The notes under the pieces were generated by a model. That model was given only the letters and a program-made list of their open reading frames with translations. It had not been told where the DNA came from and ran no database searches. From Hexactinellida sp. DTS-2022 (taxonomy: Eukaryota > Porifera > Hexactinellida): a stretch of 64,000 bases of DNA. Made by a program: the position numbers and the translations under genes. Shown one piece after another: positions 5,890-47,096 of the stretch. The DNA lies in assembly GCA_028753945.1 (NCBI GenBank), contig JAPNXP010000002.1:9362001-9426000 (forward strand). Reading direction: 5' to 3'. How positions within the stretch are numbered: position 1 is the first letter of the stretch; each line of letters starts with the position of its first letter.

Positions 5890-8060
5890 CCGAAGATATT
5901 GTATTTAAGGCCCGTCTTTACTCAAGATGGAAATCGACATTAGAGTGTTTTTGGATAGTATCCAGTATCGTCTAGCTGCACTGAAAATTTGAGGTGAATC
6001 TGACCTCTACTTTTTCAGTATAGACTATTTTAAAGCATACGGAATGTGTACATCATCACCCAAAGGTCACTTTTCAAATGAAATAAAAATTCCGGGAGCG
6101 CGCCCGGTCACAGTTTTGCTACAAATTTGTTGAAACCAAGTTTAAACTAAAGAATACATATGGTCTGAGGTAACGAACCTTGATTTATTCTTTACAATCC
6201 AAACTTTCAAAGTTATAGACCTTTAAAATTCGACTTTGACTGCCATTTTTCATAATTTTGACGAATTTTGAAGAATTTATTGGCTTGGCAGTTAAAGTCT
6301 GACTTCAAAAGGCTGGGATTTTCAAAGTTTGAATTGTAGAGAATAAATCAAGGTTCCTTACCTCAGAACATATGCATTCTTCAGTTTAGACTTGGTCTCA
6401 ACCAATTTGGACCAAAATTGTGACCGGGCGCGCTCCCGGAATCTTTTTTTAAATTTACTTTTCGCACTATTTGAACATGATCAGAATGAATTTATATTAT
6501 TGCAATCATTAGGATAATGGTTCAATTTGTTCTTCCAGTGTGTTTGCAATACTATATGGGTGATATTTGAAATTTAACTGTAGACTGCCTACTGATACAC
6601 GTTGTGCCAGGAGGAAAACAGGTCGATCAAATAATTCAAATTTCATGAAAATTGGGATTTAGACATGGTTTTGTACTCTCTATCGATTTCATTCAAAAAA
6701 TCAAAATTTTCAGAAATTGTTATGATGACGTAGCATAAAAGTGAAATGCTCCACTTGCCCGCCACTTGCTTTTCTAAATTATAAATGTTATAATTTCACC
6801 GTATAAATACCCGAAAGAAGATATTAGACTAAATAATATCTATTTTAGTATATTTGGTTTGACTAATACAGAGTTGTGATAGATATAACTCAAATATATG
6901 TAATTTTTAGTAATCCATGGTTCATTAAAAACAAATTTGCCGATTTTTAAAAAAAGATGTAACTTTCGTTTAGTGAATCGGATTTGTTCAATTTTTGAGA
7001 TCTGATGACTAATAAGATAGTCGTCATTATTCATGTTTTTAAAAAAAGGATCACTTACATGTTAACGGCGTTATTTCGATTTAAAGAGAAAGTATGTGAC
7101 ATCATTTTTTGTCGAAATCCTTTAGTAAATTTTTTCAAAAATTCTAGAATGTTGATATATTATTGTGCTCTTGTTGGATTTCAAATTATTAGGTTCTAAA
7201 TATTAAATTCAAAGAACTACAGGGTATGCTATTTTCCTGAAAATCACTCCGGCAGTCTACGGTTAATGCTAGAATCTAGAGTTTATTTATCAGGAGTTGT
7301 AAATTTGCTAAATCATCAAAAATTGGCACATTTCTATACCCATATATGGTCATTTTGAAAACGGAGTTAGTTAGGCTCACAATATGTATTATGGACGGAT
7401 AGGAAGTCGGGTAGTGCGAGCATTTTGCACACAAAATTGTAATTGTATGTCCACGGGTTTGTGAGAAACCATAATATAAAATCACAGGGACCACCCAATG
7501 AGATGAACATTATGAAAAGTTTATTTGTTGCAAGGGTCACAGATTTGGTCAAAATTTAATGAAATCAAGTTTAAACTATTAAATACACTTCTATTTAGGG
7601 AATGATCCTAACTCTAAGCTTCACAATGCAAATTTTCAAAGTTATAGCCATTTGAAGTTCGATTTGTCAACTTGGCAGTCGAAATCTAAGTTCAATTGTC
7701 GATAACTCTGAAAATTTGAATTGGAATGGTATAAATTTTGGTATACACCCAAATTACATATGCAATTATGCTAATGTATGAATAATAACGTGAATGATTG
7801 AAAATTGAGACTGTGTGAGCCTACAAAACTCTATACATTTGAAAAAACACCTTTCATGATGACCTGCACATTCCTGGCACATATAATGGTCACTACAGCA
7901 AAACGAGATATCAGATTCACCTGAAATTTGAAATGTAGCTATACTTTATAGGGTGCTATCCAAAAACAATCAAATCTCAATTTCTCTGACGAGCATTGTA
8001 GGGCCGGAAATTACTAACACTGAATTTGGCAAGATAACAGAGATTTTTCGCTTTCACATT
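5890..8060. repeat. Large fold-back repeat element, copy 1
   Basis: Both ends carry inverted related sequence: GGTGAATCTGACCTC near 5995 on the left and TCAGATTCACCTG near 7912 on the right. A second copy with the same outer sequences lies at about 31,445-32,500. Inside, 6089-6442 is a strong inverted repeat whose outermost 20 bases are perfectly complementary (ATTCCGGGAGCGCGCCCGGT and its complement), with arms of about 150 bp. No transposase is recognisable. Exact borders are uncertain by about 50 bp. Confidence 0.55.
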
Positions 8061-8338
8061 GCCATAACGTGTTAAAAACTTCTCAGAATTAAAAAAAAAA
8101 ATTCCAGCTGATCTTACCGATAATACTACAAATAATAATGAAATAAACTCAAAAATAGTTATTTTGAAATCTTGAGTAAATTTAAGTAATTAGTAAAACT
8201 TAAAATAGACCTGAAGCAATGTGCTTAGTAATACAGCCGAACCTCGTTACATTCGACTATAACTAGACAGTTTAATTTAACACACAAAAACACTATGACT
8301 AATTAATTATTATTGAGACTAAGCAGGGAATGAATCTA

Positions 8339-11257
8339 TTTCCTTTTTCTTCGCCGTTTAGGAAACTCATCAGGACTCTTCTTTCGCTTTTGAGACGGAC
8401 GACCCTTACTAAGAGGAATTTTAGGATTCTGTATGATAATTTCTTGATTTGATACCATAATATGAGGAGCTACAATATCCAATTCATTGTATTGCAGAAG
8501 TCCTGATATTTTCATTAATTCTATTCTCACCTTTTCAGTATTTCAGAGGTTAGAGAAGCTATTCTAGCGACGTTCTTGAAATCGTTACAAAGAAGCGCAT
8601 ATCTTTCGTCTTTAGTCTGTGGAAAATGTGAAACGTTATATTCGTGTACTCGTCGATTAGCAGTTATTGACTCATTTACTAAGTTATCTCTCTGTCTCTC
8701 ACCTTTAACTAACCATAAACTGGATCATCAGGTATTTTGGTTTGTTCCTATACAGATATACACGTAGGATATGCCGACACAGTAGTCCCAAACAAGTGGG
8801 GAAAAGGCATGTACATGCTGAGATTGACACGCGTCTAAGTGTTTCTGAACTTGTAGTTATCTCAGAAGTGAAAGAAAGATCACAAGCATTAAAGTGATCA
8901 CTCAAAATAGGTGTTGTTGAATCTTGAAGCTCCAAATCCATCCTCTAGAACATTGTTTAAGAGCAAGTCGGGACCTGTCGGGTTGACTTCCCTTCCCACT
9001 CTCGGAGATAATCTGGCGATATTATTCCAATTTCCCTGCAAGATCCGTTAGGAGTGTATGTGAGCTTAGAAAATGCTTAATAGTTGCATGTATTGACTCG
9101 GATCGTTGAGTGGAATGCGCCCCCAGTGTTAAATGGTTCCATGTCCACCTTGAAACCCACTGTGTTTTTCGTTCATATAAAGTAAACTTTGCAACCATTT
9201 CTTTGCAGATTCTAATGTTTTCACACTAGTACTGTGTCAATAGACTCCAGTATTCCAAATAGATCGTGCCATTCTGCATCAAGACTAATACATGATTCAG
9301 CATCTTGCTTTTTACAAATCCAGCTTTATCAATAAACAATGGTTTTATATGAGTACTAGCCGGGTGCCCGCGCTTCGCCGCGGTATTCAAATACACGGGA
9401 TGACTTATAATGAGTTTATGATTTGAAATATGACGGATATCTAATATGACGGATGTGTAATATGATGGATATGAAATGTGTAATATGACGGATGTGTAAT
9501 ATGACGGATATGACAGTAGTTAACAATATTGTAAACAGTTGTATTAATATTACGGGGACCATAGGAATGAGACTTTTGACAACGCAATACAAGCTGATAT
9601 TTTATTGGTTGAATAATGTCAGCTATAGCAAGGGACATTCAATTGTTGTTTTTTTTCATACACAATTGACCCACTTTAATTATAGACCAATAAAACTCGA
9701 GTCAGAATAATGTGAAAACTCTGCAATCTGATAGGTCAAGGTCGGTACCCTCGCAAAGTGTGAAAAATATGCATGTGATAAATTGCAAATTATGCATTAT
9801 ATTGACTTTAAAATATCATATTTGGATTCCTCATACACTAAAACCTAGATTGCACGTTTGAAATGTGTTTCTAGCAGCACTGTGAACTTTTGATAATTCT
9901 CATTGAAATGTATGGGAAGGTGCCAAATAATCACATATTTTGAGTTAACTTCGCGAGGAATGCAAATATCTCTTCAAAATTCCTTATTCAGGGTGGTGGG
10001 ATAACTCCTAAGTGACATACAAAATTTGGTTCAGATCTGTTGAGAACTCTCAGAGGAGATGTGAGGACACACATACATACACACAAACAACTTTATATAT
10101 ATTGATATAGATTTTTAGATAGATGGTACGTACATAGTAGATGAGAAGTATTTGATAACGCGCTGCTAATTGCGGATCTCCATCAGTAAACAAAACCTTT
10201 GGGGATGTTTGAAAAGCTTTACGAATTCTCTATATACCCAATCAAACGAGGATTCGGTTTAATTACTTAATAATGAACTGGCAAGAATAATTGTTCTTCG
10301 TCAGGGCTCCAAACTTAAGGCAATATTTGTTTGTACCATGTGATGTGTCAAAAGATGCAAGATTGTTCTCATAATCCTCGGCCCAGCGTTCCAGCCCATT
10401 CTTCATTTCCCAGAATACTTTGTCTAAACAACCATCCGGGTCAGTAGTTGCACTGTTATGTAGAGGTCGTTGTCCACAATACGTTTCCGTAGATATTCAA
10501 TGAAATTTGTAGTATCAAAAGACCTTTCTTCTGTGCTTGGTGAAAGATTATTATAAACATATTGATGGGTCCATGATACTGGAAGTTCTAGTCGATAAGC
10601 CTCACTCTCAAAAACTTGAGAGATTTTTGAAGCTGAAAAACCAGCACTCGTCAAAGTTTCACCGAGTTTTAGCAAGTCCTTAGGTATAGAGCGACGAGGC
10701 GCTTCTGCTAGACTAGACCCAGTAGTTTGGTGAAGTGCATGATTATGTTGAATGTTTCCACGAACAATAACCCATCCGTCAGAACATTCTTCAATGCAAG
10801 CAAAAACACGGACAATTGCATTTAAATGAGGAGGTATATCTTCCTTCTCCAGTCAGTTTTGCCTTTCTTGAACGATGACAATTTAGAATCTTTTGGTGAC
10901 CTTTTTACTCGTTCTTACAAGATTAGCACCCCAGTTTAGACTAAAACGTCCTCAACCTGTTTATAAGCTGTGAGCCCATGAAGAAAGTTCTTGCTTCGCA
11001 GAATCTGTTGAGGTCCACGGACCAGATGGAACATCCTCCGGTAAATTGATAGTTCTAGCACGCACAACTTCTGCTACAGTCCGGAACTTACTATATGGGC
11101 AAATATTTGCATCAATGCTATTAGGAATTGTTATTGTTTGGTTTGTTGAGTCAGCGTTGATTTCTTCTCTTTGAATTGGATCAGGATTAGGCGGAATATT
11201 TGGATACAAACTTTGACTTGAATACTCTTGAACATTAGTTGGTGCTAGTGTAGGCAA
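8339..11257 (-). pseudogene. SWIM-type MULE transposase relic
   Basis: Reading the minus strand, successive fragments in shifting frames follow the order of MULE/ZSWIM-like transposases. There is an N-terminal stretch with SAKQELSSWAHSLG (about 10,960-11,010), then a FLYWCH/FAR1-like zinc region (CIEECSDGW then HNHALHQ, about 10,725-10,790), then PRRSIPKDLLKLGETL. The DDE core has its first Asp in DTSHGTNKY (10,349-10,347) and a second in LFTDGDPQLA (about 10,176-10,187). Next come STQRSESIHA (9095-9114) and a SWIM zinc finger CTCLF...LLCRH (8815-8771). A basic tail, KGRPSQKRKKS, ends it near 8339. There are at least four frameshifts or stops. A retroposon-like insertion at about 9352-10,115 splits the core after the second Asp. 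Family assignment is firm; this copy cannot make a protein. Confidence 0.85.
9352..10115 (+). mobile_element. Retroposon-like or Helitron-like insertion with CA-rich tail
   Basis: Begins CTAGCCGGGTGCCCGCGCTT, a GC-rich head common to short invertebrate repeats, and ends in ACACACATACATACACAC followed by ATATTGATATAGAT. Both sides are sequence of the minus-strand MULE relic, so it inserted there. Positions 9415-9510 hold an 18-21 bp minisatellite (ATATGACGGATGTGTA). I could not define a target duplication. The class (SINE-like, RTE-derived or Helitron-like) is unresolved. Confidence 0.55.
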
Positions 11258-13286: not shown

Positions 13287-13890
13287 GTATTGTCTTTTTT
13301 AAATTCCCAATTTATGCGGCCAAACTTAAGATCTTCAATGAATTTCCAAGTGAAATATTATGCCTTTTCATTATACATTAGTTGGGACTATCTTAGTTAC
13401 TCCGTTCTTGTTCACTCCTACTGTGGACTAATTTTTAGAATTTGGTTTAGTACTCAATTATTAGTGTATTTAGTACCAACTAGTACAAATTCCTGCGATA
13501 TACTCTATCCTTCAATTGGTTTATCTACACAATTGTCATTTTAGTTAGCAAACTTACTAGCTTTTAATGGAATCTTTATCCGCGAGCCTTTCCTCGGATT
13601 ATCTATGTACTACGCTTTTAATAGTTTAGTGCACGGTATTGCATTCATAGTCTCTTACTGTGAATTTTCGACCGACTCTTTATTTCGGCCTGGACACCTT
13701 CAATCCGCCATCAACTACAATCGAACTTTCGATGCTTTGGGGTTTGAACTCTCTCCGCACCATAATCTTACTTTCAGTACCTTATTGGTTTATTCCTATT
13801 TACATCGATTCTCCTTAGCTATTCTTAATTATGGTATAACTTTAGCAATTTCGAAATTTATTGTCTAAATTTAAACTTATACCTTCCTAC
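13287..13890. other. No recognisable gene
   Basis: Open frames at 13,290-13,544 and 13,605-13,868 are hydrophobic and low in complexity, and look like chance frames in T-rich sequence. Nothing else is seen before the hAT MITE at 13,891. Confidence 0.25.
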
Positions 13891-15010: not shown

Positions 15011-17843
15011 CAGGGGCGAGGAACGCTATCCGCAGGGGTGGGGTATGTCCAGAGAGAGGGGGGAGGGGGGGGGGCAAAAAAAACAGAAATCCCAATATGC
15101 CCAAAAACGTCCGTATGTTCATTGACTAGTAGATACGTCTTCCATTGATGGTTATAAGATGAATCTTTATATGAGTTTTTTCGTATTTTTTAAGATATCA
15201 TGTTTAAATCCAAGAGATTCCACTCTGAAGCCGATTCCGATGCGGTCAGTGCGACTTCATCGGCTAGTGAAAGCGGCAGTGAGTACAGTCTCGGCCCCGC
15301 ACTGGGATCCTTTGACTGAAACGATGACACTGCCGTGGAGTATCATGTAAACGAGCACGATGCAGAAGAGCAAGGTGGTGTTCTCCCCGTGTCTCCCAGT
15401 GCTGCCCAGGTCGCAGCCGGTGCTAGTGATTCTGCCCGCGGCCCATCCGATCTTTCCAGAGGACCTGGAGATGACCCCGTGATATGCCCCAAGCCAAGAG
15501 GCGGTTATCCCAAATCATTTCCTGCCAAGTCTGCACCTCGTTGTTTGAAGGAAGACTGGAAGACTTCCTGGCTGGAGTACTCTTCTTTGACAGATATGGT
15601 ATACTGTCATCGCTGTAGACACTTTGGAAAAGGTGCACTCCCAGTGTGGGAAGGCCATGGTAGCCGTTTCAACATGTGGAAGAAGGCCACGACCTCAATC
15701 GAAGCTCATAGGACTAACCCAGCCCACAGTCAGGCGGAAGTAAGATACGCAGACTGGAAACAGTCTCTGATAACTGGTGGGATCAGAGGTGTCGTGGTGA
15801 AAGGTGCGAAGAAATTTGCAGCTGACAATACCCTGTATGTCGCGACTGTGGCTGAAGTGGTCAACTTCTGCGGGCGGCAGGGTATAGCATTGAGAGGACA
15901 TGGAGAACATGTTGGAAGTGACAACAAGGGAAACTTCCTCGAGTTGCTGGACGTTATATCTCGCCACGATGCTGTCGTCAACGACAAGCTGCGAAGTGGT
16001 CGAAACTACTACACCTCGCCATGCATCCAGAACGAGCTCCTAGAAATACAGGCAAACCTCATCCACAGGGACATTTGTGCTGAGATCCGGGAGGCAGGAT
16101 TCTACGCCGTCATGGCTGATGAGTCGAGGGATTTTGGGAAACACGAACAGATCTCTATCACCTGCCGGTACTTCCGCGAAGGCAATGTCCAGGACGCGTT
16201 CTTGCAATTCGCAAAGGCTGACAGCCTCACGGCTGACTCACTGTCGGAGGACATCCTGGATGCTCTGAGACGGGGCAGGCTTCCTCTGGAGGGTTTAGTT
16301 GCACAAGCCTACGATGGAGCCAGCGTTATGAGTGGCTCAATCAACGGAATCCAGGCTCGTATCTTGCGTGAGACTGATGGAAGAGCCCTCTTCGTTCACT
16401 GTAGTGCGCACCGTCTAAACCTTGCAGTTGTGGGGGCAATTCGCCATGTAGGCAAGGCTGTGGACCTGTTTCACAACATATCTCTGCTCTACTCCTTTGT
16501 ATCAACCTCCGTTGTCCACGCGAAGTATGAAGAATTCCGTGGTCCGACGAACAGGCTGGAGTTGCAGAGGTTAAGCGGAGTCGAAAGTACTCTTCGAATA
16601 TGTTTATTTCTATAGGCAAAGGTAATATTAAGCGAGACGCGGTGGGTGTGCCAACACGCTGCGTGCCACAACGTTCGGGTGAACCTTCCAAGCATCATCG
16701 AAACACTGAACTACTTTGCTGATAGTTCCGCCAACGTTGATGCCAATAGACGATCCGAGGCGCGTGGGCTGTTATCCTTCATGGACACCTGTTTCGTAGC
16801 AGAACTATGCATCCTGGAAGAAGTGCTAGCGAAGCAGAAGACTCTACACCAGGCATTGCAGCTTGAGAAATTGGATCTTCCCGCTGCCACCCTCATGATT
16901 CAAGCTAGTATCGAACACTGTGAAAGAGAGTTATCTGGTGGTTTTGCCAGTGAAGTTTGGACACAAGTGTGGGGGCGCTTCAACCATCTAGTAGAGGAAC
17001 TCGACCTTCCGCGTCCACAACGGCGATCGATTCGCAGAGTGAGGAGGGATGAGGCGGCACAGACTGCCATTTTCTTAGATACACAGCAGGACTACTGGAC
17101 AAACTTATATGAACCAATACTCCGGGCTACTGTAACAGAGCTTCAGAGGAGATTCAGTGGCGGCACAAACGTGGCCTTCAAAGGAATTGATTCCTTATCC
17201 CCTCCGTCCCCACACTTTCTGAGCCTTGAACATGGGCTTCACGAATTCGCGACCCACTATGGCGTGGATACCGACACTCTGCGCCACGACATCCAGACAT
17301 ACACTACCCTTGTTGTCAACAAGAGGGAAGTGGACAGGTAGTTTGTTGCCCCAGCATGCATAACCGACCTTTTGAATCTCACGGCACCATACAAGCTGGC
17401 CATGTCTGCGCTGTACCAACTCGCACAAATAGCTGTGACTATTCCAGTAGGCACAGCTTCTTGCGAACGGTCCTTCAGCTCTATGCGGAGAATCAAGACG
17501 TGGCTTCGCGTGCAGACTGCCGACGAACGTTTATCCTGGGTGGCGATTCTCTCTGTAAACAGAAAGAGGGCCAAACATTTGGGAGAGAACGGGTTTCGTA
17601 GGGTTGTCGAGGAGTTCAAGAACCGTAGTGCCAGGAAGTTGATGTTGTCCTAGTATGTATGTAGTATGTAGTACATAACAGTGGCGTGCAATACTTTTGC
17701 ATAGTTTTTCAATTTTTGACACACAAGGGTTATTGTTGTATATAATAGCAGCAAACCCCCTGCCCCCGTAGGGGGGGGCAGTATGGGGGGGGGGGCAAGG
17801 GGGAAGCAGAGGGGGGCAATTGCCCCCCCTTCATCCGTCCCTG
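15011..17843 (+). mobile_element. Near-complete ZMYM1-like hAT transposon
   Basis: A 2833-bp element with a perfect 8-bp target duplication GAATTTAT (15,003-15,010 and 17,844-17,851). The left terminus is CAGGGGCGAGGAACG and the right terminus, reverse-complemented, is CAGGGACGGATGAAG. Both subterminal zones are extremely G- or C-rich: runs of 6-12 G at 15,054-15,074 and several runs at 17,755-17,830. The transposase fills most of the interior. The clean duplication and single reading frame mark this as one of the youngest insertions in the window. Confidence 0.93.
15200..17653 (+). pseudogene. hAT transposase, ZMYM1-like (TTF zinc finger, DUF4371, dimerisation domain)
   Basis: Cut-and-paste transposase acting in the nucleus. 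One frame can be followed for about 817 codons from the ATG at 15,200. It starts with an acidic Ser-rich start (SEADSDAVSATSSASES), then a TTF-type zinc finger (YCHRCRHF... to H of NPAH, about 15,600-15,730). The DUF4371/RNase H-like core follows (GFYAVMADESRD near 16,100; AYDGASVMSGS near 16,310; VHCSAHRLNLA near 16,400). The C-terminal hAT dimerisation motif is GTASCERSFSSMRRIKTWL (about 17,450-17,510). Only three in-frame stops occur: TGA at 15,317, TAG at 16,613 and TAG at 17,339; there is no frameshift. The 16,613 stop may lie in a short intron: removing GT..AG at 16,570-16,632 (63 nt) leaves the frame open and joins LQ to SETRW. If the other two are not recoded or spliced, this copy is dead but recently so. 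Confidence 0.9.
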
Positions 17844-18811
17844 GAATTTATAACTATAGTAATATATTTATAGTCTTTTCAGAGTAGTTTATACAGCCGT
17901 AAATAAGTTACCAAACGAATATTGTGTCTGCATAAAAATTAGTAAACGTTCGAATACATTAGGCTGGGTAGTGATATAATATTCTCCTATAGAACAATTA
18001 ATGGAACAACTAGAGTTAACAAATAAAATGGATCACAGCCTCTACGACGCGTTTGCTTTTGTCATTTGTACTCATGGAAGTGATCGAAAAAGATTTGGAC
18101 CGACCACGTGTACTCGGTTAATGAGAAAGGACTCTGATTTAGTCTTGTAGAAGTACAATAAGATAGTCATTTTTTTTGTTTCAACCAATTGTTCGTCACT
18201 TGCCAACAAACGAAAAATATTTATTTTCGATTGTTGCCACGGCGAAAGAGGTGGACCCACCATTCGTAATATTACCGAGCATTTACCACAGCTTTTGCTC
18301 TGAATTCCACGACACCCATTTATCAAGATTGTATAATTATTTCTTCTTCCACGTCTGGTGATACTTCTTGGGGAACTAAAGATAATGGTACTTTTTTTTC
18401 TGGAATATTTCGCCATGTTTTAACAGACAGTAAACTCGTGGAATCATTTCATTTTCAGGAACTTTTGAATTTAATTTCTCATCGCACTTTGGAGGTTTCC
18501 ACTAAGCATAGTTATCCTCAGATGAAACAAAGTACGGATTTACTTTTCCAGATCTTGAATTTTCGTAGGTGTTCCTTGATTAATTTGTATCGTGACAAAA
18601 TCCGACCTTTGTCGTACTCTTGCACTGGCTATCCCTCCTCTAAATTCCTCTGTGATGATATATACTGGCCCAATTCGGTACTCTTTCTTGATAATCATGT
18701 TTTCAATGATGATGGAGGGAATCACAGAGTTTGTGTCTTTGACATATCTGGAAAATTTGTCAATTCGATTATCCATGGTTTACTACAGCTACCTCACGGC
18801 CATGGAGTTAA

Positions 18812-19484
18812 GGTTCCAATATCCAAATAAATTTACCAATTTCGGGTACTTTGCCACTTATAGGTTTTATATCATTTATGGATAGAACAGCCTATGACGC
18901 ATCTCTATTCCAAATTTTGTATAGAAATATTGAAAACTTTTAATAATACCGACTTTTTTGTCACTTGCACATAAGCCACTCCTGTAGGGGGTCATTTTTT
19001 TCTTCCCGCCATCTCCAGTCGCAACTTTTGTCGAGATGTAAGACACATTTTGGCTCATATACAACCTAGAAACAAAATCTCAACGGTTTTGGACAGCTCT
19101 CAATTAGTTCTATCATATCAATGTAGGGATTTCATTTGATCTTTTCTTTGAATTATGATTAATTTTCGAATGATAAAAAAAGTGATGTCCACTGTCATTG
19201 ATGAAAAATTGAACTCATAAGTAATCAAAAGAAGTTGTACATTCATATGATCGATTAGAAGCTTCTCTAAGTAATAAAACTGGAAACAAGTGTTAATCAT
19301 TAAGAGGAAATAACTTGTGTATTACATAAAGTGTGTTTTTATAAAATTTTAAATTTTCTCTATGTTACTTAGGTCGAATATTGTTGCATTTTTGGATATA
19401 TCTCGCCGCTGGGAATCTGAAACAAAAAAGATCTTTCAAATTTGCAAAAAACTGTAGAAAAGTGATTTGAAGTATACTGGAACC
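18812..19484. mobile_element. TTAA-flanked element, family A, inserted in an NHL repeat
   Basis: A 673-bp element between TTAA at 18,808-18,811 and 19,485-19,488. The termini are GGTTCCAATATCC and, reverse-complemented, GGTTCCAGTATACTTC. Internal sequence matches the outer part of the element at 45,347-47,096 (for example GGACAGCTCTCAA, TTCATATGAT). It lies back to back with the next TTAA element, sharing one TTAA. It has no coding capacity. Confidence 0.85.
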
Positions 19485-19505
19485 TTAAGGAGATAGAGTC
19501 GTAGG

Positions 19506-20134
19506 CAGGGGCGGCGCTAGGTATTTAAGCTTTAGGGCGCATAGGGTTCGCAGATTATTTTCAAGGGATTGCAATAAAATTGAAGGGAAACAAAAAATGC
19601 TTTAGTTTATTATATTTCATGATTAAAAACATTTGTAGATTTTCTGATTTATAGTATTTTGTGTTGTTATTATTTGTTACTAATAGTGTGCACTTATAGT
19701 ATAAAACTATAGTAGAACCCTACTACAGTAGATGTCGGATATAAGCTCACCGGTTATAAGAACATATCGGAAATATGCACACAATGTTGGGAATCGGTAA
19801 CCAAATACCATTTATAAGTGATGTGGGTTATAAGAACATGCCGGTTATGAGCACATCAAGTGCAGGACCCGACGATGTGCTTATAAACGGTATCCACTGT
19901 ATAACATTTTTTATTAGAAGAAGCTCTATAAAAATTGTATATTAGTATATGAAACTTTAGTACTAATATTTATGATTCATTATTAACAAAGGTTTTCTAA
20001 TCCAAAATATATAGAAGTGAAATCACAAATTATCACACAACTATTTCTAAATATTCTGCGCCCCTGTAGGGGACGCAAGAACTTTATCAGGGAGCGCAAC
20101 TGCGCCCCCTGCGCCCCCTCTAAAGCCGCCAATG
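19506..20134. mobile_element. hAT MITE with perfect 8-bp TSD
   Basis: 629 bp, flanked by GTCGTAGG at 19,498-19,505 and 20,135-20,142. It begins CAGGGGCGGCGCTAGG and ends AAAGCCGCCAATG, with GC-rich subterminal blocks (GCGCCCCCTGCGCCCCCTC). It inserted 17 bp inside the left end of the TTAA element of family B and carries a pogo-type MITE itself. Confidence 0.85.
19726..19899. mobile_element. 174-bp pogo/Tigger-type MITE
   Basis: TA-flanked, starting CAGTAGATGTCGGATATAAG and ending AACGGTATCCACTG. A 174-bp copy of the same family lies at 37,603-37,776. Internal repeats of GGTTATAAGAACATGCCGG are diagnostic. It is nested in the hAT MITE at 19,506. Confidence 0.8.
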
Positions 20135-20914
20135 GTCGTAGGTTTTCGACACCCGGTAACCCCCAATCTTTATTGCGTTTTTGGACATAACTTTTTGATA
20201 GGAACAAATAACAGTATCATCACAATTCTCTAAAATGAAGATTTGAATTAGATATTGATAGTTTAAAAATAGCGTAATAGTGAATCCATAGGAATTCTAG
20301 CAATTTTCTCTATTTGACGCATAGTTCTAATTTAGTGCCAATTTAACTCTACACTATTAGTATAAGGGATTTCGCAAATCAAAATTTTCGATATCGGTTT
20401 AAATCATTTTTCTATGGATTTTCAAATAATCACTCAATTATATCAGAATTTTCGCATTATAAAATTAATAACTCTATAACTTTGTATTAAAGTTGAAAAT
20501 CGATAAAGCGAAATTTGAACAACTACTGATAAGGATCAATTTTAAGGAAAATCTGTTTCTCTCCGACTTATACCTTTTGAGATATGCGAGTTATACAAAG
20601 GTCACTTCCCGGAGATTATTGAGGAATTTCTTTTGCACAAAGTAACGGTGTTTTGACCTTTGGTGACTTCACAAATGTCAAACAAATGTCCGAATCAAAA
20701 TTTTCTTTCGGAGTTGGATAGATTGTATATCAATGTATAGCTAGGAGTGCTTAAACAAGAATCCATCATTTTTCAGGATATATCTATAATTTGGTATCCA
20801 TTCTCCATATTTGCACAAACCCCCTTTCTTTGACCTTTAGTGACGTTGAAAGGCCAAAAGAAGAAGACGAATCTTATTTTTTCTTCGGATACGGAGAGAA
20901 AGCATATCAAAGTA

Positions 20915-21655
20915 CAGGTATCCCTCTTTTTACGCGGTAGATGCGTTCCTTGAAAAGCCCGCGAAAACGAAATCGCGTAAAAAAAACGGTTCATTCTCAT
21001 AGTAACACATATTAAACCAATAGTTGCGTTTCCAAATATTATAAACATCGAATAAAATTTTTAATACCTAGTGTTTAAACACTAAAAAATCCAACATCCG
21101 GACCTCTCAGATAGCCAAGGTTTCCGTGTGTATGTTAATCCCATGGGTATTCCCATAGGATTTCCAATATCGTTTTGAATGGTAATTATTTTTACCTATG
21201 GGAATCCTGATAGAAACCAACTTGTGAGAATACTTGGGAATTCCCACAGAAAGGGAATTGTGTTGTGAAGGGAATTAAAATTCACTTCACACCGCAACCC
21301 TACACCTTCGGGTACCTCCCACAACTGGGTATCTCTAGTGTGAATAGTGAAGCAAATATGTATTCATTTGACCAATAATATATTTGGATGAACTTACTAT
21401 ACGACAAATACATATCCCTAACTATATACTATCTCTAAATCATCATTTTTGTTTTTTTGGAAATGTAGAACCGCTTTGTTACCACTAAATCTCAAAAATT
21501 ACCGAAAATATCCATAAAAAAGAAAATTAATTGTATGAAAATCATAGAAAAACCGCGTAAAACGAGTTGAGGTTCGCGTAAAAATGTTTTGGTCATAAAA
21601 AATTGTTCCGCGTAAAACGAAAACGCGTAAAAAAACCGCGTAAAACGAGGTATTA
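20915..21655. mobile_element. GCGTAAAACG-type TIR element, borders approximate
   Basis: The left end reads CAGGTATCCCTCTTTTTACG and the right end GCGTAAAACGAGGTATTACTG, which are complementary over about 20 bp with several mismatches and have TA next to each. Subterminal GCGTAAAA motifs recur. An inner block (21,110-21,320) with GGGAATTCCCA palindromes and GCAACCCTAC looks like another insertion. There is no gene. Confidence 0.6.
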
Positions 21656-22320
21656 CTGATAGCTGGGAGTGGTTAATCTATCAAATATAGTATTTTGTTA
21701 TATTTGTTAATCCCATGACCCTATCTCCTTAACAAAGATGGGAATCTAATTGTTAGTTGTTGGGCTAGCCACACAATTGAAATATTTGCAAAACATTGGT
21801 GAGTTTGGCTCGACCAATGAAATATTTATTCGTCCCAATGGTCTAGCCATTCACCCGAAACATAATGACACGTTTATCTGTGACCTCAATAACCACAGAG
21901 TGCAAATCTTCAAACCCGTTTTCGATTTCATTACTTCAATTTTGGAACTGTATTATCCTCAAGATATTAAATTCAATTCTTCAAATGTCGTTATTCTGGA
22001 TAAATCTGATTTTGTATACACTTCTACGATCTTGACAATCTATTTCCTACAGGGATCATAGTATCACGTCTACATGATTTTGGGTTAGCATGTTTTTTTT
22101 TCTTTTGATGCCGATAACACCTTATCATTCCTGATTATGTAAACCATTGCGTGTGGTTTTTCTCTGCGATTGGGAAAAGTTATTGCACAAGTTAGGGCAA
22201 AAGGGAAATGACCCCGGAAACTTTATTTCACCAAAAAGCGATTACTTTGTGCACGAATAATGTTTTGGTAATATTATCTAACATAAACAATGGTCGCCTT
22301 CAGTATTTCCAATAGTATTC

Positions 22321-36414: not shown

Positions 36415-37602
36415 CCCGTAGCTCCCAAAGGTAGTATGTAACTACTAGTAAGCAACGAAAAATATAATCCACTGAGTTGGCATTCCATTTGTTAAACAAT
36501 TATATAAATAATAATAATATACGATAGATTTAATGGTATAGATTAAAATTATTTTTAGCATAAGTTATAAACATGACGATTTTATAAGCACCTATATTGA
36601 CATTATGCAAGTTGTTAAGAGTATAAATAGTTTTTGTTAGCTTTTAATATTGTGTCCTAGCTGACCCAGTGTATGACGAATGCTCTATGTATAGCTGGGG
36701 GTCCAACCATCGAAGCTTTGTTGAACATACTGCTAGCTAAGCTTTCTTCCGCTGTCCTAGATTGTTGGACCAGGAAGCTAGAACACTTTTTATATTTTTT
36801 TCCTTTTTCTCTTTTTTTCTTTATTATAAAATTAGTCTTAACGCGAATAAATTTTATAAAAAAATTTCAGGATTATTAATCTCCTGATTAATTACTATTT
36901 ATTGTGCCCAAATAGGCTTCCAATCTACTTGATGGTATATCCTTTCAAATTAGTTGCAAATCTGAAAATATGTAACTCGGAAGTTTGTCTATCCATTGTA
37001 TAATTTTGCTAAATAGCAGGAAATTAAGGTCATGGAAATTAACGCTCCATGAAATTATCGCGAAGGAAATTAACGCGATTTGGAGAAATTCGCGTTAATT
37101 TCATGGCGCGTTAATTTCCTATAATAGGGTATATTGCTTGGCTGATGATTCTCCACGAGTTCATAGTATCGAAATGATAATTAGCAGGAACAAGTCCACG
37201 TCTAGCAGCAATGACATATCCAGTTATTCTCATCGGTTGCCAAATCTGATTATAATCCATTTGCGAATTCAGAAGATATTCTGTTGGTGAGTGTCCACTA
37301 ACTTGACTTCCAAGTAAAGCAAATAAATCCAGCTCCTTCTATTTCTTTATATTGTACAGTAGATGCCGTATATAGAACACTGGTTATAAGAACATGCCGG
37401 AAAATAATAACATTCTACTGGAAAACGGTTGCCATAGACCCCTATATAATTTATGCCGGTTATATTATGAACATTGTATGTACTTGGGTTGAGGTTAATT
37501 AACCGTTCTTAGGGTACGGTTGCGATTCAATTTCTCGACATGGTTAACTGGTTAACCCACATGCTACTCATACAACTAATCCTTTATCATATTTAGATTA
37601 TA
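36415..37602. other. No gene; small MITE scraps
   Basis: 37,030-37,130 is a hairpin repeat (GAAATTAACGCGATTTGGAG ... CGCGTTAATTTC) also found at 62,655-62,705. 37,357-37,470 is a truncated copy of the 174-bp pogo-type MITE (CAGTAGATGCCG). No coding sequence is supported. Confidence 0.5.
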
Positions 37603-37776
37603 CAGTAGGTGATGGATATAAGCACACCGGTTATAAGAACATATCGGATATAAGCACACTATGTTGGGAAACGGTTGCTATATACCCTGTATAATTTATG
37701 TCGGTTATAAGAACATGTCGGTTATAAGCACATCAAGTGCAGTTCCCGACGATGTGCTTATAACCGGCATCCACTG
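37603..37776. mobile_element. 174-bp pogo/Tigger-type MITE
   Basis: TA-flanked, starts CAGTAGGTGATGGATATAAG and ends AACCGGCATCCACTG; same length and layout as 19,726-19,899. Confidence 0.85.
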
Positions 37777-39037
37777 TACTACTGAATAAGACTCAGCTTT
37801 AAAAAGTATTACCCAAAAGTAGTTGATACATTTCATAATTTAGATAAGGTAAAAATAAAATATATTATGTGGCCATGCCGTAATAGGTCAAGGAAAATAG
37901 TCACATAGTATTATACTGTTTTTTGTAGAAATTAGTCCGGGAGACCAAATGAATACAAGTTAGAATTTTATGCGGAATCTGGTTCGCCCTGAAGAATTTG
38001 TTGCCCTCTTCCGAATATGACCACAAAAACAAAAACATATGAGTACGACGTCCATTTACACTATCTCTTTATGTAACAGTGAGGGATTTAGTGTTTGTGT
38101 TTATTACACGATAGCGATAAAATCTCTTATCAACTAAATGTCCATCCTGAACGTCAATCTTTGATTGAATCTGCAACAATTATTTGGGATTAAGAACCAA
38201 CCCGGAAAATGTCCTAACTGACTCCTCAAATTTGTCCTAATTTTACTTTGGAATTTGTCCTAAGGGAATTCCCAACTTTGGAATTGACCTAAAATAAATT
38301 TTTGGATATCGTCAAAAAAAGGAAAATGGAATTTTTCCCAAACTGATTTGGATTTGTCTTACATACCATTGAGACCAATAAGTATAATTCAAGGAATTAT
38401 CCAGGAGCGCGAGACGCTCCTTTTGGAGTATGATTTTTGGAAAATTTTATTTAGGAGCGCGAAAATTTGGAATCTTCTCCTATACCGTAACGTTAATTTG
38501 TGATTTAGGCGTATGAAAATTGGATCAGACCAGGATTAATGAAAATGTTACAATTACTGTATAATATTTATTTGCGTTATTTGAGAATTTCATTCAATTA
38601 CTATTGAGTGAATTATAGTCATTTGATGAAGTATTTTATAATTAGTTTTGTTCATTTGAGTATTTACTATTTAGAGCTCATGTTGTCAACACTCACCAGT
38701 AATTAATTGAATAATTAGAACTTGAGCAATTTTCTAGAGAATACAGCAAATTATGGATGATTGTAAAAACATTACAAATTATTAGATGAGAAACTCAATT
38801 TAGAGAATTTATCTCTCGACTTCTTGTTTATATCCCATAATTGTAACTGACAAATTTCAGTTCCAAATTACGTATAATTCTGTTTGTTTACAAACTCATG
38901 AGTAACGTGATCAATAAACAATATAAAAGAATAGGCATTCGCGTTTGAACTGTTCTTCTCAACTATTCTTTCCAAACCACTAAACTCTAATTTGATCACT
39001 TTTGGAAACAAAACAAAAACACTAATATAATCGAATA
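37777..39037. other. Upstream flank of a Mutator-like transposase; no gene
   Basis: Near 38,403-38,465 GGAGCGCGAGACGCTCC and AGGAGCGCG form short hairpins. The last 300 bp would hold the promoter of the transposase at 39,038, but I cannot point to a TATA box or terminal repeat with confidence. Confidence 0.3.
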
Positions 39038-45346: not shown

Positions 45347-47096
45347 GGTTCAGGTATCCTCTACAAAATCCCAAAATTTCGATAAAATCCCAAACTATGG
45401 TAAATCTCGTTTTTATTGCATTTTCTGATTGTGTGGATACCTAAGTGGACTCTCACGAAATTTCAAAGAAAAATCCCAATTATTTCTCCAGTTTGACTCA
45501 CTTCGAGTTTTAAAAAAAATATTGGGGTTCTGGTTTTGGTTGCCGGTTGCAGTATACCATAGAAACTTGATAATTTCGGGACATTGCCACATTTAGGTTA
45601 TATCTTATATTTGGATAGAACAGCATATATCGCATCTTAATTTCAAATCCTATTGAAAAATATTGAAAACTTTCAATGATACAGACTTTTTAGTGTCCTC
45701 CACCTAAGCCATTGCCATAGGGGACACTTTTTTTCAAACCCCGCTATCTCCAAACACAATTATTGCCATTGCGGAAGTCATATTATGACTCATATACTAC
45801 CTAGAAACAAAATCTCAATGGTTTTGGACAGCTCTCAAATAGTTCTATCATATGAGTGCAGCGATTTCAATTGTAACTTTTCTTTTTCTTTTTATTTAAT
45901 TTATTGATGATGAAATAAGTGATGTCCACATTTATTGATGAAAAATTTGACTCATAAGTGATTAATAGAATTCTTGCACTCATATGATAGTTTAGAAGTT
46001 TCTTCATGCAATGCAACAACAATCTACTCTTAATAATTAAGGAGATAGAGGCTCAAATTTTAGACACCCGATAACCCCCAATTATTATTGCGTTTTTGGA
46101 CAGTACAAGTTATTCTAAGAAGGACGTAGATACTCCGAATTTCAAAAATCGAAAAATTTGGATTAGATATTGATAGTCAAAGTTTAGCCTAATAGTGAAT
46201 CCATACTAGATAATGTAAGAGCTAGCAATTTACTCTATTAGGCGCAAGTTCTGTAATAGTGCTAATTTAACTATTTACTATTAGTTACATCAGATCCGCC
46301 ACGTACATTTTTCAGAATCAATTTAATTTTTTTTTTCTATAGATTTTCAAATAATTGCTCAATCTTTACCAATATTTGGCTCTGATTAATTATTAACTCT
46401 ATAACTTTGTTATACAGTTGAAAATCGACGCGGCGGATCTGGTAGCTCTACTAATAAGGATCATTTTTGAGGGATATTTTTTGTCTCTCCGACTTATACT
46501 TTTTGAGGTATCACGTGCATAATCAAGGTCACTCCCCGAAAATTATTAGACAATGTATTAGTACAAAATGGCGGTGATTTTGACCTTTAGTGACGTCAAA
46601 AAGGTCAAAAGATTGTCCGAATCAAATTTTTCTTTCTGATTTGGATAGATGGCATGTAAATGTATAACTAGGAGTGGCTAAACTAAATTAATCTTTTTTC
46701 ATTAATTTACAATAATTGACTATTCTATGGCCATTTTATTCTATAAGACGACGATTTGGACCTTTGGTGGGGTCAAAAATGTAAAAAAAATGTCCGAATC
46801 GAATTTTTCTTCCGGAAGTGGATAGATAGTGTATCAAAGTATAGTTGGAATGCTTCAGCAAGAATTTTTGCATTATCTAATAATAGATATCAATTTGAGC
46901 CTCTATCTCCTTAACAGGAAAATACTTATCCGTTCCGCAAAATACGATTTTATAGAAAAGAAGAATTTCACTGAGTTGCTTAGATCGAATATTATCGCAT
47001 TTTAGCCATTTAGAAGATGAAGTAAATCCGCTGTAAAAAAATTAATTAATTCGGGTAAATATATTTGGTAGAAGTGCTCTAGAGTATACCTGAACC
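45347..47096. mobile_element. TTAA-flanked element, family A, in a Ginger intron
   Basis: 1750 bp between TTAA at 45,343-45,346 and 47,097-47,100. Ends GGTTCAGGTATCCTCTA and, reverse-complemented, GGTTCAGGTATACTCTA. The arms match the shorter copies at 1175-1870 and 18,812-19,484. It contains the family B element at 46,041, which accounts for 874 bp. Confidence 0.88.
46041..46910. mobile_element. TTAA-flanked element, family B, nested in family A
   Basis: 870 bp between TTAA at 46,037-46,040 and 46,911-46,914, with perfect 19-bp inverted ends (GGAGATAGAGGCTCAAATT). Homologous to 19,489-21,728, where the extra length is later insertion. Confidence 0.9.

Follow-up and report, generated by a model that had tools for sequence, protein, structure and literature searches.

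A decayed caspase-NHL gene family and intact caspase-NHL fusions of probably separate origin in a hexactinellid sponge genome

Can a caspase and an NHL propeller belong to one protein chain? The question is raised by a locus in the genome of the sponge Hexactinellida sp. DTS-2022 (assembly GCA_028753945.1, G000 in our analysis; 112 Mb in 18 contigs), within a stretch of 64,000 nucleotides on contig JAPNXP010000002.1 (C11; positions 9,362,001-9,426,000) that is referred to below as the window. A broken gene at window positions 17,989-22,257 encodes a caspase domain (PF00656), followed by a linker and an NHL propeller (PF01436), and it belongs to an old caspase-NHL gene family and has decayed. 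An earlier note on this DNA had proposed a caspase fused in frame to NHL repeats at 17,992-22,320; the remains do lie there, at 17,989-22,257, but a caspase exon farther upstream, at 13,602-13,790, had been missed. The parts of the gene and of its insertions are given below in window coordinates; "own-genome" denotes caspase and NHL hidden Markov models (HMMs) built from the intact genes of this genome.

13,602-13,790, forward strand: first caspase exon, for the N-terminal portion of the large subunit (own-genome caspase HMM, E = 1.1e-6)
15,320-17,653, forward strand: transposon remains in successive open frames between exon 1 and the downstream gene part, not the gene itself
17,989-18,147, forward strand: caspase large-subunit piece with the catalytic His (THG) (own-genome HMM at 17,992-18,090, E = 0.0025)
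18,151-18,270, forward strand: caspase piece with the catalytic Cys (FDCCHGERGG), called by PF00656
18,270-18,566, forward strand: caspase small subunit, in a frame different from that of the preceding piece, called by PF00656 (own-genome HMM at 18,321-18,566)
18,567-18,659, forward strand: caspase-propeller linker, in the open frame 18,270-18,830, aligned across five copies
18,660-18,812, forward strand: first NHL blade, sharing its open frame with the small subunit (own-genome NHL HMM, weakly, at 18,660-18,809, E = 0.0041)
18,813-21,745, forward strand: insertion that splits the propeller, with dispersed repeats, parts of which recur in the window and at other loci
21,746-22,257, forward strand: remaining NHL blades, interrupted by stops and frame changes

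Both domains are significant on the unjoined pieces. Matches above the curated Pfam cut-offs were obtained for 18,151-18,300 (PF00656, 9.7e-6), 18,270-18,827 (PF00656, 3.4e-5) and 21,750-22,058 (NHL, 2.3e-6), and the caspase region thus carries the significant PF00656 match on which the earlier note had made its proposal depend. The window read-through, with X at the breaks (residues 1-336), matches PF00656 at 2.1e-19 over profile positions 57-226 and NHL at 7.3e-5, a whole-genome PF00656 search returns the window at 18,013-18,258 (1.9e-8), and the own-genome HMM finds NHL at 21,771-22,022 with an E-value of 3.2e-18. Pfam alone gave no match for the exon at 13,602-13,790 or the piece at 17,989-18,147, and did not call the first blade inside the 18,270-18,830 frame. 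The piece at 17,989-18,147 has a counterpart of 92% identity in the copy on contig C12 and is also supported by an alignment. The upstream exon has counterparts beside the C12 copy (97% identical, in the same order and orientation) and at a fragment on C4 (51%), and a segment similar to it lies upstream of another copy, C11b (L019 5041-5220; Pfam 7.2e-4, under the cut-off in bits).

The join itself lies within one open frame, 18,270-18,830 (186 codons). The frame quoted in the earlier note, 18,438-18,830, does cross the junction, but the actual frame is longer. Compared with the diverged copy C11b, residues 60-178 of this frame align at 40% identity (E = 2.1e-18) across the junction, and the match continues into a clear NHL propeller (L019:6803-7501, 2.7e-19, in three stretches). 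In C11b, too, the caspase-NHL junction is inside one open frame, and the junction and linker are common to five aligned copies. The proposal of an in-frame fusion is therefore borne out.

As the earlier note had recognized, the window copy is broken. An in-frame stop at 18,148-18,150 closes the large-subunit piece, and frame changes and later stops follow, besides the two insertions. The upstream insertion contains a DUF4371 match (5.6e-19, within 15,320-16,612), a domain that we take to be typical of hAT-type elements; the downstream one has no corresponding gap in C11b. The window repeats at 18,830-21,700, 37,601-37,778 and 45,572-46,865 share about 73-87% identity, and pieces of the dispersed repeats recur in L019-L022 and L024.

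Long copies with both halves number six including the window copy, and all of them are broken. The other five, and the shorter remains, are:

C12:992,736-999,807: C12 copy, whose longer alignments with the window copy show 93.6-96.2% DNA identity
C11:10,665,041-10,667,501: C11b, propeller with one stop, caspase broken
C11:8,379,346-8,381,152: C11c, 92-94% DNA identity to C11d over the gene
C11:10,466,383-10,467,775: C11d, 92-94% DNA identity to C11c over the gene
C11:6,072,925-6,080,969: C11e
C4:1.327M, C11:11.020M, C1:10.283M and C1:12.290M: family fragments

Searches of the genome with the pseudogenes as queries returned, among the matches listed, broken copies as well as stand-alone caspases and NHL genes, and no intact member of the window family. 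A 769-codon hAT-type frame within the C12 copy (L018 5180-7489, C12:994k; hAT dimerisation domain, 1.9e-5) is perhaps a recently active element.

Do the two halves of these copies share one history? All six caspase halves fall into one clade (support 99/96 in a tree of 28 rows, 99/97 in a second tree), and so do the propeller halves of five copies, C11e being left out of the propeller trees (99/98 with 20 rows, 98/97 in a second tree). Since both halves form single clades, one fusion explains the window-family copies; from the fused gene at least two more branches arose by duplication, and each of the six long copies found has since decayed. Between branches, the proportion of nonsynonymous differences (pN, 0.43-0.52) is below the saturated proportion of synonymous differences (pS, 0.77-0.79) in 8/8 pairs drawn from five copies, codon position 2 is the least changed in the same 8/8 pairs, and pN is below pS in the caspase and the propeller half alike. 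The excess of pS points to a protein that was under constraint before it decayed. The recent pairs appear to have evolved neutrally or almost neutrally, with a ratio of nonsynonymous to synonymous rates (omega) of 0.92 for window/C12 and 0.67 for C11c/C11d.

These results bear on the simplest objection to a fusion, namely that a caspase pseudogene came by chance to lie beside NHL sequence and that the window family was never fused. NHL sequence is abundant enough in this genome to invite such an accident (2,268 first-look candidates), and separate caspase and NHL genes are found close together at L030, L032 and L035. However, chance neighbours would not be expected to hold their junction in one open frame in both the window and C11b, to have a linker common to five copies, or to form clades in both halves with pN below pS in each. 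We consider this explanation very improbable, and chance adjacency was rejected on the in-frame junction in two diverged copies together with the clades of both halves. Caspase and NHL are separate but nearby at L030, L031, L032 and L035.

The sources of the two halves can be traced to some extent. In sequence searches of the PDB, all matches listed for the caspase half were caspases (best 60 of 130 for C11d, best 60 of 106 for the window copy), led, among the matches listed, by caspase-6, an insect caspase-type chain and caspase-3. The caspase half joins L001 and L037 in the first tree (90/88), a join left open with other rows in the second, and L037 has two exons whose boundary lies near that of the window family. 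In the first tree, where the MALT1-like L032 is a long branch, the fused clade stands apart from it; the second caspase tree did not include L032. Intact NHL genes of about 410-440 amino acids (aa) align with the propeller and the lead-in to it, only from C11b residue 117 onward (32-35% identity to C11b for the best rows; L027 also matches). Like the window family, these genes have the propeller, lead-in and C-terminal end, but they carry no caspase, having instead about 120 N-terminal residues of another type, coiled-coil-like by eye. When the 150 best of the first-look NHL candidates were scored, all were above the cut-off. The 410-440 aa genes are hugely expanded in the genome, and many are without visible introns or stops. 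One fusion joined an executioner-type caspase with the propeller-bearing half of an NHL gene. In one scan of prokaryotic genomes 52 pattern matches, and in one scan of viral contigs 60, included no relative.

Does the genome hold caspase-NHL genes that are still intact? The earlier note had supposed that live members might exist elsewhere, and had allowed that caspase and NHL might prove always to be separate genes. Scanning the flanks of other caspase hits, which covered part of the flanks of 64 PF00656 hits, revealed intact genes with both domains in that order, and the candidate statement that the genome contains no intact caspase-NHL gene was ruled out by them:

C1:879,234-880,940: L071, intact stop-to-stop frame of 568 aa, PF00656 and NHL above cut-offs
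C1:891,421-893,163: L072, intact stop-to-stop frame of 580 aa, PF00656 and NHL above cut-offs
C2:2,151,477-2,153,249: L073, intact stop-to-stop frame of 590 aa, PF00656 and NHL above cut-offs
C5:4,523,733-4,525,766: L074, intact stop-to-stop frame of 677 aa, PF00656 above cut-off

PF00656 E-values are 3.5e-26 to 8.3e-30 in the four genes, and those for NHL are 1e-7, 2.2e-7 and 1.6e-9 in L071-L073. The alignment of L072 with L073 extends through both domains (29% identity, 4.4e-46), and the best 60 of 202 PDB chains matched by L073 are all caspases. Among Pfam matches of L071-L074 with E <= 0.1 there was no death-fold family, and Pfam called neither RING nor B-box in them. NHL signal was present beside 4/36 non-fused caspase loci, some of which are flanks of one gene, and beside 0/5 further ones (L079-L083). 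The genome may contain further intact caspase-NHL genes.

L071 and L072 lie about 10 kb apart and have diverged caspases with a nearly identical propeller: the synonymous divergence (dS) is 2.2 in the caspase half (omega 0.13) and 0.06 in the propeller half (omega 0.16), with a sharp border between them. The simplest reading would be that the propeller half was recently converted or recombined, and the omega values show purifying selection on both halves.

Are the intact genes surviving relatives of the window family, or the product of another fusion? When the propellers of the pseudogenes and of the intact genes were held together as one group, the constraint was rejected by the approximately unbiased test (p-AU 0.00016), and also when C11b alone represented the pseudogenes, in each of three tests (p-AU 0.00024, 0.00055 and 0.00072). 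Since the intact genes drew their propellers from a different part of the NHL family, caspase-NHL fusion probably happened at least twice in this genome. The expectation of live members is thus upheld in that intact caspase-NHL frames exist, although their membership of the window's own family is unlikely. Two origins are well supported by the propeller half and are only hinted at by the caspase half. The intact propellers as one clade are neither shown nor rejected (p-AU 0.17), and the caspase halves of the intact genes group without support (71/38).

Alternatively, the window family and the intact genes could descend from one caspase-NHL ancestor and have diverged beyond recognition. Their identical domain order would follow from such an ancestor, the caspase halves reject a single clade only at the border (p-AU 0.053), and long branches are flagged in the propeller tests. 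A single origin is nevertheless difficult to reconcile with the rejection by the propeller halves, with the separate N-terminal exon of the window family (split near that of L037) as opposed to the single frames of L071-L074, and with the residue two before the catalytic Cys, which is Asp in 6/6 pseudogenes and Asn in three intact fusions (alignment rows L042, L043 and L048). We therefore regard a single fusion as unlikely and prefer separate origins.

What could the fused caspases cut? In the pseudogene copies the catalytic His is kept in 5/5 readable cases and the catalytic Cys in 6/6. The substrate pocket, by contrast with that of other caspases, is changed. Two residues before the Cys, Asp has replaced Gln in 6/6 pseudogene copies, whereas the remaining 22 rows in the alignment table have Gln (15), Asn (6) or Asp (1, the MALT1-like L032), and three of the six Asn rows are caspase halves of intact fusions. 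Six further caspases have Gln (3), Glu (2) or Asn (1) there, and the two with Glu (IIEACRG) are intact members of a tandem caspase cluster at L054 (C6:325,501-330,500). A pocket Arg has become Gly or Ala in 5/5 readable pseudogene copies, and is kept in 21/21 other readable rows, that of L032 by a doubtful alignment. The intact L072-L074 (rows L048, L042 and L043) keep the catalytic His and Cys and the pocket Arg, with Asn two before the Cys; the catalytic His and Cys of L071 are present as read by eye.

In caspases, an Arg/Gln pocket accommodates Asp at P1, and the window family does not have such a pocket. Because of the Asp two before the Cys and the lost pocket Arg, the extinct window family, going by general caspase biochemistry, probably no longer preferred to cut after Asp, a claim that we make weakly. 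In MALT1-like paracaspases, Asp at this position goes with cutting after basic residues. The window family shares this Asp with them and with L032, but it is a caspase proper by tree and PDB matches and is without the Ig domains of L032. L032 itself (6114-8828, C13:4.96M) is a MALT1-like gene that combines Ig domains with a C14 domain in a single frame of 905 codons. The fused proteins resemble instead the executioner-type caspases (caspase-3, -6 and -7; peptidase C14A) in PDB matches and in the catalytic His and Cys, but differ from them by the added C-terminal NHL propeller and, in the window family, by the missing pocket Arg and the Asp two before the Cys.

The same residues raise the possibility that the caspase fold was kept for binding, as a scaffold or decoy in which cutting is not essential. 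There is precedent in c-FLIP, a caspase fold kept for binding, and the loss of the pocket Arg in 5/5 readable pseudogenes, together with Asp in place of Gln/Asn in 6/6, would suit such a role. A scaffold would have little use for the His and Cys that the same pseudogenes keep (5/5 readable and 6/6), or for the His, Cys and pocket Arg that are all kept in the intact rows L042, L043 and L048. We judge this alternative improbable, and continue with a protease that cuts.

How might such a protease be controlled? Animal caspases are usually activated via death-fold prodomains and adaptor platforms. Because the intact proteins show no death-fold prodomain, the propeller probably fills the role of one. 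We hypothesize a sensor-protease in one chain, in which the caspase cuts and the C-terminal propeller senses or targets: the propeller would bind a ligand or partner, the bound propeller would gather the caspase domains or position them on the substrate, and this gathering or positioning would switch on cleavage. A built-in sensor or targeting arm seems the most likely function of the propeller; the earlier note, too, had suggested that a functional relative could couple a death-type protease to a sensor of RNA or protein. The propeller might also do nothing but place the protease, through a membrane, RNA or E3 partner, with activity uncontrolled. The closest solved propellers are those of TRIM-NHL proteins, in which the propeller picks RNA or protein targets, and this makes pure placement conceivable, but we think it rather doubtful. 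The TRIM-NHL proteins (TRIM2, TRIM3, TRIM71, Brat, Thin and Mei-P26), which lead the 18 PDB sequences matched by the C11b propeller, have a similar C-terminal propeller; in the fused proteins a caspase stands where their RING, B-box and coiled coil would be.

Taken together, the reading that we favor, at slightly better than even confidence, comprises a decayed old fusion family, intact fusions of probably separate origin, and a sensor-protease in one chain whose pocket was changed in the window family. Several points weigh against it. The protein-guided read-through alignment can lower pN, a single origin is not clearly rejected by the caspase half (the borderline p-AU given above), and long branches were flagged in both sets of propeller tests (five pseudogene copies, and C11b only). 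L074 has no Pfam NHL match and only a weak own-HMM propeller (0.028). An acidic residue two before the Cys is not unique to the window family, as Glu occurs in two intact caspases; the other, N-terminal pocket Arg is kept in the window copy (it is Leu in C11b); and the claim on specificity is weak, the pocket changes being read from pseudogenes. A bolder and more tentative version, which is possible though not probable, holds that the lineage repeatedly built such one-chain proteins, with an NHL propeller from a very large family directly gating an executioner-type caspase, the sensor half being homogenised or exchanged between paralogues, and the cutting preference of one branch having moved off Asp. 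By analogy, a caspase gated in this way might then be a counterpart, working without an adaptor, of caspase activation of the apoptosome or NLR type.

Each domain by itself is well known, and their combination appears to be new. In Halichondria panicea, NHL is listed among the domains of sponge immune receptors in a receptor figure legend (PMC8242945). These receptors resemble the fused proteins in having NHL, and the portions of PMC8242945 and PMC3386278 that were available describe no caspase-NHL protein. No description of one was found in the literature searched, with subscription journals largely outside its coverage. The genome also contains very long open frames (1,090-1,859 codons) that end in a caspase domain, at L002, L003 and L005-L008 (C14:4.73M, C14:4.51M, C1:2.495M, C11:716k, C10:597k and C4:883k, respectively). 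A CARD is present in L002 (4.1e-8), L006 contains a stretch resembling COR-A that stays below the cut-off (9.9e-4), and these genes are possibly Roc-COR-CARD-caspase proteins. The metazoan-type caspases, the CARD and the MALT1-like gene accord with an animal genome.

If the favored reading is true, an NHL propeller on the caspase chain would provide a direct-sensing route to protease activation. The intact proteins of 568-590 aa, each in a single frame, are concrete material for the study of NHL sensing and gated proteolysis, and L071 and L072, with a nearly identical propeller on two diverged caspases, offer a natural domain comparison. The two sets of fusions suggest that a caspase was wired directly to a possible sensor more than once in this animal.

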